Of a DNA stretch of 64,000 nucleotides, positions 9,675 to 55,496 are shown in pieces. A model generated the notes under the pieces. It had not been told where the DNA came from and searched no databases. It was given only the letters and a program-made list of their open reading frames with translations. The position numbers and the translations under genes are program-made. How positions within the stretch are numbered: the first letter of the stretch is position 1; the number at the start of each line of letters is the position of its first letter. Origin of the DNA: Pseudorhodobacter wandonensis (GTDB taxonomy: Bacteria; Pseudomonadota; Alphaproteobacteria; Rhodobacterales; Rhodobacteraceae); NCBI RefSeq assembly GCF_001202035.1, contig NZ_LGHT01000044.1, positions 372,001 to 436,000 on the forward strand, given 5' to 3'.

Positions 9675-10703
9675 TTATTCAGCCGAAGACTTTGCCCAAA
9701 GGTTAATGTCTTCTTCAGAAGAAATCTGGTCAATTTCGGCCAGCTCTGCTGCGGTAAATTCAAGGTTGCCAACGGCACCTGCGCAGTCAATCACCTGTTC
9801 AGGCTTTGACGCGCCGATCAGCGCCGTCGTGATGCCGCCTCCGCGCAACACCCAGGCAATCGCCATTTGCGCCAAGGTTTGCCCGCGCGCCTGTGCCATA
9901 GCATCCAAAGCCTTAACCGAGGCCAGGGCCCGCGCGGTGATCGTTTCGGGGTTGAGCGATTTACCCTGCGCCGCGCGGCTACCTTCGGGAATCCCGCCCA
10001 GGTATTTTTTGGTCAAAATTCCCTGTGCCAGTGGTGTAAAGGCAATCGACCCCACGCCCAGCTCGGCCAGCGTGTCCTTTAACCCGTCCTTTTCCACCCA
10101 GCGGTTCAGCAGGTTATAGCTCGGCTGATGAATCACACATGGCGTTCCTAGCTCTTTCAAAATCGCAACCGCCTCACGCGTCCGCTGCGAGTTATAGCTG
10201 GAAATCCCAACATATAGCGCGCGACCCGACCGCACGATATGGTCCAGCGCCCCCATGGTTTCCTCAAGCGGGGTGTCAGGGTCAAACCGGTGCGAATAAA
10301 AGATATCAACATAGTCCAACCCCATCCGCTTCAGCGATTGATCGCAAGAGGCGATCAAATACTTGCGGCTGCCCATCTCGCCATAGGGGCCGGGCCACAT
10401 GTTATAGCCGGCCTTGGACGAGATGATCAGTTCATCGCGATACCCTTTGAAATCGGTCGCTAGAATATCGCCAAAGGCCTCCTCGGCAGATCCGGGGGGC
10501 GGGCCATAGTTGTTGGCCAGATCGAAATGCGTGATGCCATGGTCAAACGCAGTCTGGCAAATCGCACGTTTGGTTTGATGCGGCGTGTCATAGCCGAAAT
10601 TATGCCAGAGCCCCAAAGACACCGCAGGCAGCTGCAACCCCGACTTGCCGCAGCGGCGATAGATCATGCGGGAATAGCGATCTTCTGCGGGTGAATACGG
10701 CAT
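9675..10703 (-). CDS. Aldo/keto reductase (YghZ / L-glyceraldehyde-3-phosphate reductase type)
   Basis: 342-residue NADPH-dependent reductase of the AKR superfamily (TIM barrel). The N-terminal YRRCGKSGLQLPAVSLGLWHNFG and the motif ITHFDLANNYGPPPGSAEEAFG are typical of the YghZ/MgrA group. Catalytic residues visible: Asp in FDLANNYG, Tyr in the same motif, Lys in IISSKAGYNMWPGPYG and His in DIFYSHRFDPDTP. The C-terminal GASKPEQV segment binds the NADP phosphate. AAAGGAG lies seven bases before the ATG. It is the last gene of the xylose operon, 110 bases after xylA, so a pentose-aldehyde or glyceraldehyde role is plausible but not shown. Confidence 0.88.
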   Translation of the reverse strand: MPYSPAEDRYSRMIYRRCGKSGLQLPAVSLGLWHNFGYDTPHQTKRAICQTAFDHGITHFDLANNYGPPPGSAEEAFGDILATDFKGYRDELIISSKAGYNMWPGPYGEMGSRKYLIASCDQSLKRMGLDYVDIFYSHRFDPDTPLEETMGALDHIVRSGRALYVGISSYNSQRTREAVAILKELGTPCVIHQPSYNLLNRWVEKDGLKDTLAELGVGSIAFTPLAQGILTKKYLGGIPEGSRAAQGKSLNPETITARALASVKALDAMAQARGQTLAQMAIAWVLRGGGITTALIGASKPEQVIDCAGAVGNLEFTAAELAEIDQISSEEDINLWAKSSAE

Positions 10704-10746: not shown

Positions 10747-10774
10747 GATGAAACGCAACCTCTTGCATTTCATC
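10747..10774 (-). terminator. Intercistronic hairpin downstream of xylA
   Basis: Inverted repeat GATGAAACGCAA / TTGCATTTCATC around a four-base loop, 12 positions with one C-A mismatch. It sits in the 110-base gap between the xylA stop and the aldo/keto reductase start, in the direction of transcription of both. There is no following U-run, so it looks more like an mRNA-processing or stability element or a weak terminator. It overlaps the repeated element at 10766-10791. Confidence 0.5.
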
Positions 10775-10791
10775 TTGGTCCAAATACCTAT
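10766..10791 (-). repeat. Intergenic 26-base repeat element, copy A
   Basis: Read on the minus strand: ATAGGTATTT, then GGA, then CCAAGATGAAATG. Copy B at 55151-55176 has the same two blocks with TTG in the middle, so 23 of 26 positions are the same or nearly so. Copy A lies between xylA and the aldo/keto reductase gene and points with transcription. No coding role is apparent. Confidence 0.7.
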
Positions 10792-10813: not shown

Positions 10814-12115
10814 CTATACGAATTTATTCCAAAGGTTTTCCAGCCGCTCTTGTTTGCCTGACCGAGGTTGCGGGTTCACATCCCGCGCCAATACATCGGT
10901 GCAGATCGATGCGAGGTCAGACTTCAGCATCGCTTGCGCGGTGTCTGTCTCCCAACCTGCATAGCGTGTCTTGCGCAACGCCTCTAGGCTGCCATCCTCC
11001 AACAATGCCGCCGCCGATTTCAGCGCCCGCGCGCAGGTATCCATCCCGCCGACATGCGCCAAAATAAGGTCTTCGGCCTCAAGGCTTTGCCGCCGGATCT
11101 TGGCATCAAAATTGGTGCCGCCGGTGGTATAGCCACCCGCGCGCAGAATCTCATAAAACGCCAGTGCTTTTTCGGCATGGTTGTTGGGGAACTGGTCGGT
11201 ATCCCAACCTGATTGATAATCGTTGCGGTTCATATCAATCGACCCGAAAATCCCGAGACTCGCCGCTGTCGCGATCTCATGCTCAAAGCTGTGGCCCGCC
11301 AAAATCGCGTGGCCTTGCTCGATATTCACCTTCACTTCTTTTTCCAAACCATAGCGGCAGAGGAAACCGTACACAGTTGCCACGTCATAGTCATACTGGT
11401 GCTTCGATGGCTCTTGCGGCTTGGGCTCGATCAAAATCGCGCCCTTGAAGCCGATTTTGTACTTATACTCGACCACCATTTGCAAGAAACGCCCCATATG
11501 GTCAGCCTCAAGCCCCAAGTCGGTGTTCAGCAATGTCTCATAGCCTTCGCGCCCGCCCCAAAGCACATAGTTCTGCCCGCCCAGCCGTTGTGTCGTGTCC
11601 ATGCAGCCCTTTACGGTCGCTGCGGCATAGGCAAACACCTCGGGGTCAGGGTTTGTTGCGGCCCCTGACATCCAGCGCTTGTGGCTGAACATATTGGCGG
11701 TGCCCCACAGCAGCTTGGTTTTGGATGTCTCCATCTTGGCCGCAAAATAATCGGTGATCTCTTCCAGATTGCGCTGGCTTTCGGCAAAATTCGCGCCCTC
11801 GGGCCGCGCATCGGCATCGTGAAAGCAAAAGAACGGCATGTTCAGAATGTCGAACATTTCAAATGCAACGTCAGCCTTTAGCCGTGCCAAATCCATGGTG
11901 TCGCCAAACCATGGCCGGTCCAGTGTCTGGCCGCCAAACGGGTCACCGCCCGGCCATGCAAAACTATGCCAATAGGCCGCGGCAAAGCGCAGATGGTCCT
12001 CCATCCGCTTGCCCATGATTACCTCATCCGGGTTGTAATGGCGAAAGGCAAATTCGTTCTGGCTATCAACGCCTTCATAGGCGATCGCAGGGATGGATTT
12101 GAAAAAATCAGTCAT
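10814..12115 (-). CDS. xylA: Xylose isomerase
   Basis: Converts D-xylose to D-xylulose in the cytoplasm; a TIM barrel with two divalent metals. 433 residues, the normal length for the type II (long) enzyme. Visible signatures: [13 protein letters not shown] with active-site His and [12 protein letters not shown] (catalytic His), metal ligands in [18 protein letters not shown] (Glu) and [34 protein letters not shown] (Asp ligands) and [13 protein letters not shown]. It overlaps the end of xylB by four bases (start ATG within ATGA), so it is coupled to the kinase gene ahead of it. Confidence 0.97.
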
Positions 12116-32000: not shown

Positions 32001-32075
32001 GCGGGCGTAGCTCAGGGGTAGAGCATAACCTTGCCAAGGTTAGGGTCGGGCGTTCGAATCGCCTCGCCCGCTCCA
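32001..32075 (+). tRNA. tRNA-Gly (anticodon GCC)
   Basis: 75 bases including an encoded CCA. Acceptor stem GCGGGCG pairs with CGCCCGC, with discriminator U. The D arm carries AGCTCAGGGGTAGAGC, the anticodon arm is TAACC-TTGCCAA-GGTTA with GCC in positions 3-5 of the loop, and the T arm contains GGGCGTTCGAATCGCC-type sequence with TTCGAAT. All stems are intact. A terminator hairpin follows at 32108. Confidence 0.97.
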
Positions 32076-53824: not shown

Positions 53825-53854
53825 AGACCTGCAACTTTGCGTTGCAGGTCTTTC
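53825..53854 (+). terminator. Rho-independent terminator after peroxiredoxin gene
   Basis: Perfect 11-bp stem AGACCTGCAAC / GTTGCAGGTCT around TTTGC, starting 29 bases after the stop and followed by TTC-ATTT. The stem is strong, the U-run short. Confidence 0.75.
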
Positions 53855-53925
53855 ATTTACCGCATTGCACCCCTATAGCGACGCTGCGGGATGACCCCGT
53901 GCCAATAGCTTTCAGCAGGAAACCG

Positions 53926-55083
53926 ATGCGCACTATTACCACCACAGACGACCTGGCCGCCTTTTGTGAGGCCGCCAAACGTGAACCCTATGTGACAATC
54001 GACACCGAGTTTTTGCGCGAACGCACTTATTGGTCCAAGCTTTGTTTGATACAAATGGCGCTGCCCGGCGAAAAGGGCGATGCCGTCCTGATCGACCCGA
54101 TCGAAGGGCCGGATATGTCAATGGAACCGCTCTATGACCTGTTCCGGCATGAGGCAACGGTCAAAGTATTCCACGCCGCGCGGCAAGATCTGGAAATCTT
54201 TTTCGTCGAGGGCAACTGCTTTCCCAAACCACTGTTCGATACCCAAGTTGCCGCGATGGTTTGTGGCTTTGGTGAACAAGTCGGCTATGAAACCCTGGTT
54301 CGCAAAATCGCGCATCAACCCTTGGATAAAACCAGCCGCTTTACCGATTGGTCGCGCCGCCCGCTGACCGAGGCGCAAAAGACCTATGCGCTGGCCGATG
54401 TGACGCATTTGCGGGTGATCTATGAATTTCTGGCCAAGCAACTTGCCGAAAGCGGTCGCCAGATTTGGGTCGAAGAAGAGTTGGGCGTTCTGACCGACCC
54501 CGAAACCTATACCATTCGCCCGCATGAGGCATGGCAGCGGATCAAAACCCGCACCAACTCGGGCCGCTTTCTGGCTATTGTCAAAGAACTGGCGAAGTTT
54601 CGCGAAGAATACGCCCAAGGCAACAACGTGCCGCGCAGCCGGGTTATCAAAGATGACGCGCTGTTGGAACTGGCCTCGACCAAGCCGACCAATGTCGAGG
54701 AATTGGGCCGTTCGCGCCTGCTGTTGCGTGAGGCGCGGCGCGGAGAAATTGCTGATGGTCTGTTGGCCGCAGTAAAGGCCGGGGTTGAGGCCAAGCCCGA
54801 AGACCAGCCCAAACCGGATACCAAGAAAGACCAAGTGCAGGTAAACCCCGCTTTGGCCGATTTGCTGCGCGTATTGTTGAAAGCAAAGTCCGAGGAATTG
54901 GGCGTCGCGGCGAAACTGATCGCCTCGGCCTCGGATCTTGATCTGATTGCCGCCGGGCAGCGCAAGGTCCCGGCGCTGGCAGGCTGGCGGAATCAGGCCT
55001 TTGGCGAAGATGCCTTGCGTTTGTGTCGGGGGGAAATCGCGCTCTCGGCCAAAGGGAATTCCATCAAGGTCGTGCGGCTTTAA
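53926..55083 (+). CDS. rnd: Ribonuclease D
   Basis: 385 residues from the ATG at 53926 (AGGA six bases upstream). DEDD-type 3'-5' exonuclease domain with YVTIDTEFLRERTYW (first Asp and Glu), FHAARQDLEIFF (Asp), and QKTYALADVTHLRVIY (YxxxD). An HRDC domain follows at about 205-290 (RNSGRFLAIVKELAKFREEYAQ region). RNase D processes tRNA and other small RNA 3' ends. The C-terminal 85 residues end in the VKPALADLLRVLLKAKSEELG-like HRDC-related part read here in segments. Confidence 0.94.
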   Translation: MRTITTTDDLAAFCEAAKREPYVTIDTEFLRERTYWSKLCLIQMALPGEKGDAVLIDPIEGPDMSMEPLYDLFRHEATVKVFHAARQDLEIFFVEGNCFPKPLFDTQVAAMVCGFGEQVGYETLVRKIAHQPLDKTSRFTDWSRRPLTEAQKTYALADVTHLRVIYEFLAKQLAESGRQIWVEEELGVLTDPETYTIRPHEAWQRIKTRTNSGRFLAIVKELAKFREEYAQGNNVPRSRVIKDDALLELASTKPTNVEELGRSRLLLREARRGEIADGLLAAVKAGVEAKPEDQPKPDTKKDQVQVNPALADLLRVLLKAKSEELGVAAKLIASASDLDLIAAGQRKVPALAGWRNQAFGEDALRLCRGEIALSAKGNSIKVVRL

Positions 55084-55150: not shown

Positions 55151-55176
55151 ATAGGTATTTTTGCCAAGATGAAATG
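55151..55176 (+). repeat. Intergenic 26-base repeat element, copy B
   Basis: ATAGGTATTT, then TTG, then CCAAGATGAAATG, matching copy A at 10766-10791 in both flanking blocks. It lies in the convergent gap between rnd and the carbinolamine dehydratase gene, oriented with rnd. The dehydratase stop codon is six bases beyond. Confidence 0.7.
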
Positions 55177-55181
55177 GGGCG

Positions 55182-55496
55182 CTAGCCCTGTGCAAGACTG
55201 TCCATCTTGGTTGCAAGTTTGATATCCAATTCGGTCAGCCCGTCCACGTCATGCGTGACAAGTGTAACCACCACGGTTTTATAGACATTGGACCATTCGG
55301 GGTGGTGGTTCCATTTTTCCGCCCAAAGCGCTGCCCGCGTCATAAAGCCAAACGCCTCGATAAAGTTGCGAAACTGGTATGTTTTGGTGATCGCGTCACG
55401 GTTGGGCAATTGCGCCCAGCCATTTGCCAGTAACGGCGCAAGCGTATTGCGATCTTGCAACCTTTCGGCGGGTTTCTTGTTTGGGGTCAGGGTCAT
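55182..55496 (-). CDS. phhB: Pterin-4a-carbinolamine dehydratase
   Basis: 104 residues with the family motif [22 protein letters not shown] (the HHPEW segment carries the active-site histidines) after [17 protein letters not shown]. Dehydrates 4a-hydroxytetrahydrobiopterin to recycle the phenylalanine-hydroxylase cofactor. No phenylalanine hydroxylase is in the window, which is common for these bacteria. It lies 15 bases downstream of the FemAB-like gene and probably shares its transcript. Confidence 0.93.

Follow-up and report, generated by a model that had tools for sequence, protein, structure and literature searches.

Rickettsia palindromic elements each form, over their whole length, one long palindrome of 100-150 nt, and some of their hairpin units lie in frame in protein-coding genes. 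REP elements, in the part of Nunvar et al. 2010 (PMC2817692) considered here, are extragenic palindromes with a GTAG-type head. DNA uptake sequences of the Neisseriaceae exist in lineage-specific spellings called dialects; in the sections of Frye et al. 2013 (PMC3630211) used for comparison, about 1900 copies are reported in genomes of 2.2-2.3 Mb, with ratios of perfect to one-mismatch copies of 1:1.15 to 1:1.45. The element described here is one of about eighty near-identical tags found across the genome of Pseudorhodobacter wandonensis, mostly at gene ends. Two of these tags lie in the window, the 64,000-nucleotide stretch C44:372001-436000 of an assembly of 3.89 Mb in 45 contigs. No description of the element was found in the open-licence literature, which does not establish its absence from print.

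The earlier note had pointed to two near-identical 26-base strings in the window, each placed after a stop codon. Both are present, ATAGGTATTTGGACCAAGATGAAATG on the minus strand at 10766-10791 and ATAGGTATTTTTGCCAAGATGAAATG on the plus strand at 55151-55176, and they differ in three spacer bases only. The window holds two exact matches to the core GGTATTTnnnCCAAGATGAA. The first, AGGTATTT-GGA-CCAAGATGAA at 10769..10789 on the minus strand, is bare (no GC-run hairpin) and points with xylA (xylose isomerase; 10814..12115, minus strand), the stop codon of which lies 25 nt ahead; an aldo/keto reductase gene (9675..10703, minus strand) lies downstream. The second, AGGTATTT-TTG-CCAAGATGAA at 55153..55173 on the plus strand, is also bare and resides in a convergent gap, about 70 nt past the stop codon of rnd (ribonuclease D; 53842..55083, plus strand) and 8 nt from that of a pterin-4a-carbinolamine dehydratase gene (55182..55496, minus strand). 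The names given to the two upstream genes, xylA and rnd, agree with NCBIfam.

The core AGGTATTTnnnCCAAGATGAA measures 21 bp and is made of AGGTATTT, three spacer bases and CCAAGATGAA; it is bipartite, polar and non-palindromic. The pair of the window is not alone, as a search of the whole genome identified 78 exact copies, 3 with one mismatch, none with two and 9 with three. All three one-mismatch copies are altered at the last base, and carry GAT for the last GAA. The base preceding the core is A in 81/81 aligned copies. The three-base spacer is constrained, C being found at 5 of 243 positions, and TT and GG being favoured at the first two positions; within these limits spacers are diverse, the core invariant. 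The earlier claim that the string is too long for chance is borne out: at up to 2 mismatches the reversed pattern has 0 matches genome-wide versus 81 for the core, and 100 shuffles of the window gave a mean of 0.05 matches at up to 3 mismatches, no shuffle reaching 2. Chance or base composition as the origin of the copies is ruled out by genome counts, shuffles and reversed control. Copies L012 and L013, 3 kb apart on contig C3, have identical flanks, and one of the 78 exact copies may for this reason be an assembly repeat.

Placement is not random. With genes called by a custom codon model, which may miss small genes, 64 of the 77 non-coding copies of this genome have a gene 3' end within 110 nt, in support of the dispersed 3' element proposed before. 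Of the two outcomes by which the earlier note would have been refuted, a genome with two copies only and a random placement, neither was obtained. Orientation was analyzed in a pooled set of 340 copies from nine site sets (among them this genome, named records of several genera including Pseudorhodobacter, E13, P. ferrugineus, G049, G013 and G018), in which 4 duplicates were removed and orthologous copies are not independent. Coding sequence contains 14 of the 340. Bare copies (n=141) are 59 with the gene, 22 against, 43 convergent, 12 divergent and 4 in coding sequence, one being without neighbours. Copies with a CCTCCGGCGG-type hairpin (n=61) are 27 with, 10 against, 22 convergent, none divergent and 1 coding, one being without a gene on one side. 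Copies with a GC-run hairpin (n=138) are 39 with, 38 against, 43 convergent, 9 divergent and 9 in coding sequence. In same-direction gaps the first two classes together prefer the direction of the gene 86:32 (p = 7e-7; 5e-5 for bare and 0.008 for CCTCCGGCGG-type copies taken apart), the GC-run copies having no preference; the difference in orientation between the latter and the other two classes has p = 0.002. Orientation varies also by site set, and in G013, made mostly of hairpin copies, 7 are with and 13 against.

A run of T residues precedes many of the copies devoid of a GC-run hairpin. Among bare copies, in counts that cover the sets of this genome, P. ferrugineus and G049 only, the T-run is found just ahead of 22/47 with-gene, 16/27 convergent and 1/13 against-gene copies (38/74 for the first two versus 1/13, Fisher p = 0.005). 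It precedes also 7/10 bare copies in divergent gaps (for example L026, L029, L040 and L052 in this genome), which may mark the ends of unannotated, small transcripts. TATTT lies within 3 nt of the end of a hairpin arm in 45 of the 81 copies of this genome, and CCTCCGGCGG-type hairpins stand directly ahead of TATTT. With-gene polarity and the T-run ahead point to transcript ends. The reading that we favour, with a probability of roughly 0.4, is that a putative co-evolving factor recognises the core as a polar site at transcript ends, and that the site probably helps to stop RNA polymerase.

The same polarity, T-runs and CCTCCGGCGG-type hairpins directly ahead of TATTT would fit a signal acting at the RNA level in mRNA 3' ends, such as a variant intrinsic terminator, a processing or stability site, or a small-RNA target. 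Yet in same-direction gaps 32 of the 118 bare or short-hairpin copies lie antisense to the genes on both sides, which makes a purely RNA-level role less likely. In a few copies of this genome, L054 and at a greater distance L064, a hairpin with a T-run precedes the core, so that the core would fall outside the transcript, and two linked half-sites at a fixed gap with a lineage-specific spelling are unusual for a terminator. At gathering score the sole match of the window to Rfam 15 is a tRNA at 32001-32072, none being found at the core, and seven element loci had no match; a known structured RNA family is thus discarded for window and loci, and an RNA-level signal is considered improbable. If the core were bound by a nucleoid protein, or by one that structures the chromosome, and were tolerated beside gene ends only, this would account for roughly 80 dispersed copies on both strands and for the presence of both orientations at gene ends; the polarity of bare copies with genes, their T-runs and the loss of the element in two congeners (see below) speak against it, and we give it little credence.

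That hairpins are a general feature of the copies is supported by neither hairpin counts nor folding. By one script, 13 G-C-C and 7 CCTCCGGCGG-type hairpins occur among the 81 first-family copies of this genome; most copies are made by the 21 bp only, with no hairpin unit. The median folding z of these copies is -0.38, and bare copies have no consistent hairpin. GC-run copies are differently built, and feature one G run followed by two C runs. All three runs have equal length in 81 of 119 such copies (5,5,5 in 46; 6,6,6 in 28; 4,4,4 in 6; 7,7,7 in 1); in G013 alone the run lengths are uncorrelated. Copies such as L074, L078 and L443 feature one G run and two C runs of the same length. Given equal run lengths, the G run may pair with either C run, an arrangement that would allow two alternative hairpins.

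Some hairpin-plus-core units reside in genes. The linkers encoded by xdhB of this genome and by an nnrD-like gene contain whole units in frame; in xdhA, and in putA of a Paracoccus plasmid, the units are antisense. The xdhB gene of an uncultured relative carries a unit with a shorter hairpin in a different reading frame. In a motif test the xdhB linker holds a recognisable unit in 17 of 29 genomes, spellings and frames differing among them; the unit belongs to the first family in this genome, and to a second family, described below, in E13. The G013 xdhB linker holds another palindrome. The spelling of G049 occurs in frame at L394 2976, minus strand, in a gene resembling by eye that of glucose-6-phosphate dehydrogenase, an occurrence which may be due to chance. 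In viral contigs at least 120 matching stretches were found, most of them by eye chance matches in AT-rich phages; among the matches listed, about a dozen GC-rich ones look real. In L203 (1743-1760) and L268 (1752-1769), both 14-kb contigs listed as viral, a copy precedes a GC-rich inverted repeat that has a T-run. Genes for terminase, portal, head and tail proteins are present on L203, which looks like a gene transfer agent cluster; its GC-run copy lies just after the terminase gene.

GC-run copies thus look like insertable units bearing the same core. The main rival to the favoured reading is a mobile repeat, selfish and non-autonomous (MITE-, REP- or RPE-like), of which hairpin-plus-core units insert by stop codons and in linkers. 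It explains the GC-run class well, as these copies have no preferred orientation (39:38) and reach coding sequence in sense and antisense, and it explains the bare class badly: most copies of this genome consist of 21 bp alone, which is short of what a known transposable element would need. Further points against it are the diversity of spacers despite the invariant core and the outcome of a PF01797 search, by which no Y1 (RAYT-type) transposase was found in this genome. As an account of the element as a whole it is rather unlikely. The small mobile repeat suggested in the earlier note fits the GC-run-hairpin class, members of which lie in either orientation and at times in frame in linkers, and not for the other copies.

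The occurrence in other Rhodobacterales, stated in the earlier note, is correct, as both relatives and named records carry the core. Among 121 genomes searched at up to 2 mismatches, at least 10 copies are present in 29 of the 72 relatives from the family to which the window belongs; none of 48 genomes outside the family has more than two. In the matches listed, the exact spelling was found in Pseudorhodobacter, Nioella, Donghicola, Frigidibacter, Szabonella, Thioclava, Roseivivax and Limimaricola, as in two records labelled Taibaiella and Mycoplasmatota. Other members of the family have spellings of their own, AGTATTTnnnGCAAGATGAA in G049, GATATTTnnnCCAAGATGAA in G030, GAGTATTT..AAGAGATGAA in G013, and G018 carries two. 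In spelling searches no spelling was recognised in G009, G012, G022, G046 and G048, by which absence is not proven.

A second family, GATATTTnnnCCGAAAAGAAA, coexists with the first in this genome, in 59 copies at up to 2 mismatches, for a total of 140 copies of the two. At the same threshold it counts 76 copies in G001, 56 in G006 (P. ferrugineus), 37 in G005, 5 in G004, and 0 or 1 in G002, G003, G007 and G008. It is less uniform in G006, where, among the matches listed, one-mismatch copies are numerous and their mismatches mostly recur at a few positions. The families vary independently within one genus, as the first is present in G003 and G008, which lack the second. Weak matches to the first family number 3 in G002 and 4 in G007; the second family has 0 and 1, respectively. 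A de novo motif search of 200 kb of G007, a span that would hold about four copies at the density of this genome, was empty. Absence is better supported by the whole-genome counts and by gene ends that are empty: seven sites of this genome could be placed in G007 and four in G051, and none has a core in the 150 nt viewed there; absence in G002, G007 and G051 is judged with these motif families and says nothing on a different, unrelated motif. Lineage spellings, a second co-resident family and a switch of spelling at the same gene ends were not foreseen in the earlier note.

The switch emerges from orthologous gene ends. Between this genome and named records, 24 orthologous pairs selected for the core in both members show a retained core, different flanks and often different spacers; the module ahead of the core can change from bare to hairpin between orthologous sites. 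That the core stays invariant at orthologous places where its flanks have diverged means that either selection or renewal preserves it. P. ferrugineus was compared over 399 kb and E13 over about 390 kb, in stretches picked around the copies of the former and the family II copies of the latter, so that the numbers show polarity and spelling, not retention rate. Nineteen sites of this genome could be placed in P. ferrugineus; 18 have an element, in all 18 with the same polarity, which counts against a mobile repeat, and one has none. Where this genome has AGG..CC, P. ferrugineus has GAG..CA: the spelling at the 18 shared ends is GAGTATTTnnnCAAAGATGA in 16, AGG..CC alone in one, and mixed in one. 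Of the 13 sites that could be placed in E13, 8 agree with this genome in spelling and polarity, 1 has a reversed family II element, and 4 have no element. Base pairing between the half-sites as the reason for the linked changes was considered and dropped on inspection, because the changes do not restore pairs.

Two of the 19 ends, own44 and own77, hold GAGTATTTnnnCAAAGATGA and AGG..CC in tandem in P. ferrugineus, and further tandems occur among its listed copies. Among the matches listed, the G006 copies preceded by T are 38 TGAG..CA and 11 TAGG..CC, none being mixed; eight mixed forms (five AGG..CA, three AG..CC) are found among the remaining ones, and three of them, viewed in context, have GC-rich hairpins or C runs ahead. 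Tandems and mixed forms favour the mobile repeat, according to which new families would insert beside old ones and deletion between direct repeats would remove one copy; with displacement by insertion and deletion, copies would look young. Such an insertion and subsequent deletion would explain tandem pairs and mixed forms, and may be the route by which sites are re-spelled.

Both genes of the window illustrate switch and loss. At the end of rnd the spelling of this genome is found also in G001, G008 and E13, and the other spelling in P. ferrugineus. Of 28 readable rnd ends, 4 have a clear element (this genome, listed as G000, G001, G006 and G008), G005 has a degenerate element, and G043 a reversed element in another spelling; G002 and G007 have no element there. 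At the end of xylA the spelling of this genome is shared by G008 and replaced by the other in P. ferrugineus; among 16 such ends a clear element is present in 3 (G000, G006 and G008), and other spellings in G026 and G029. At the element-less rnd 3' ends of G007, G002 and G004 (L460, L461, L464) the gap between the convergent stop codons seems to be a few bases only, and whole stretches, rather than point changes, therefore seem to differ. In a tree of the rnd protein, which represents a single gene, G002 and G007 are sisters (100/100) nested inside the genus (100/98), and this genome groups with P. ferrugineus (94/83). The simplest reading is that G002 and G007 lost the element and that P. ferrugineus switched recently; G005 nonetheless has traces of the second spelling.

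Copies occur also as inverted pairs. Between the two copies of the L038 pair, at positions 137903 and 138073 of contig C26, lies a stretch of about 110 nt (L038, about 1525-1670), upstream of a glutathione S-transferase-like gene. This stretch is near-identical in three species (also L099 and L119) within surroundings which differ, has no Rfam match, and could be a small RNA. The orthologous E13 site (L099) carries the first family.

A change of spelling at many sites and at linked positions is easiest read as that of a factor reading the core with altered specificity, and lineage spellings at the same gene ends, together with loss in two sister species, point in the same direction. From these sequence patterns we infer that a trans-acting factor exists, binds DNA and acts on transcription. 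In the recognition-site reading, this candidate factor would read the core at the ends of transcription units, most likely as DNA, and the bound core would help to stop RNA polymerase just past the gene end, either by raising termination at the T-run or hairpin ahead of it, or by acting as a roadblock. In convergent gaps, as that of rnd, it would keep transcription of one gene out of the other. Several observations count against a role in stopping polymerase. The 32 bare or CCTCCGGCGG-type copies which oppose the gene in same-direction gaps, and the GC-run class without preference, do not fit; the T-runs of divergent-gap bare copies need unannotated transcripts; bare copies have no consistent hairpin, and some copies lie in coding sequence. 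A strong terminator would be harmful after the terminase gene of the apparent gene transfer agent operon, and no element is found at 4/13 sites in E13 and 1/19 in P. ferrugineus.

The reading can be widened, in a form that we hold to be somewhat doubtful, to a transcript-end system of the Rhodobacteraceae, in which one or more DNA-binding factors would each have a polar site of about 21 bp at dozens of gene ends. A shift in the specificity of the factor would lead to a coordinated re-spelling of its sites, with gene ends and direction unchanged, and loss of the factor to that of the sites. Factor-site pairs such as AGG..CC, GAG..CA and GA..CCGAAAAGAAA would coexist in one cell, and the mobile hairpin unit would spread new sites. 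If true, a sequence-specific signal at gene ends has gone unrecognised in a bacterial family that is both large and well studied, and two questions become testable: by what means other than hairpins and Rho these bacteria end their transcripts, and how the re-spelling of dozens of sites is coordinated across a genome. Natural experiments would be at hand in sister species that spell the same ends in two ways, in species that combine two or three families, and in the pair with loss. Even if the element is a mobile repeat, it forms a family with a mobiliser yet to be named.

Among the described systems, DNA uptake sequences share with the element, in the sections of PMC3630211 used, a short non-palindromic motif, lineage spellings and an intergenic location tolerated beside gene ends. 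A tag for DNA uptake or transfer, kept by biased exchange, would likewise account for lineage-specific spellings and for copies in permissive places. Uptake sequences occur about once per kb, in contrast to 81 copies in 3.89 Mb here, or 140 including family II; one-mismatch copies, there about as common as perfect ones in the cited sections, are almost absent here (3 versus 78 perfect). The element has with-gene polarity in most classes, two or three families per genome, and is present in several congeners and absent from two. ComEC (PF03772), missed in two incomplete genomes, was found in 15 of 17, seven of which (G002, G007, G009, G012, G046, G048 and G051) have no recognisable elements. Copy number and mutation spectrum thus disfavour an uptake sequence, which has a slim chance of being the right explanation.

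REP elements, as far as described in the part of PMC2817692 considered, resemble the element in being extragenic, in numbering tens to hundreds of copies, in forming several families per genome and in having some GC hairpins. They differ in being palindromes with a GTAG-type head, whereas the core is non-palindromic and no such head is found in the aligned copies of this genome, most of which have no hairpin. Matches to PF01797 (Y1 transposase) are 0 in this genome, and 1 of 15 genomes has any (G006, weak); a RAYT-driven REP is rejected because no Y1 transposase is found in this genome. The in-frame copies in xdhB and in the nnrD-like gene, as the antisense units in xdhA and putA, recall Rickettsia palindromic elements; here only a small minority of copies is coding, and what is conserved is a non-palindromic core of 21 bp, to which the hairpin is optional. 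We know of no bacterial roadblock terminator of this kind. Unlike intrinsic terminators, the element has an invariant bipartite sequence beyond the T-run, spelled in a lineage-specific manner, and a stable hairpin directly before the T-run is not featured by every copy. With intrinsic and roadblock terminators it shares the T-run or short hairpin that many copies have ahead of them and, in copies devoid of a GC-run hairpin (86:32, versus 39:38 in those with one), a polar placement after genes.
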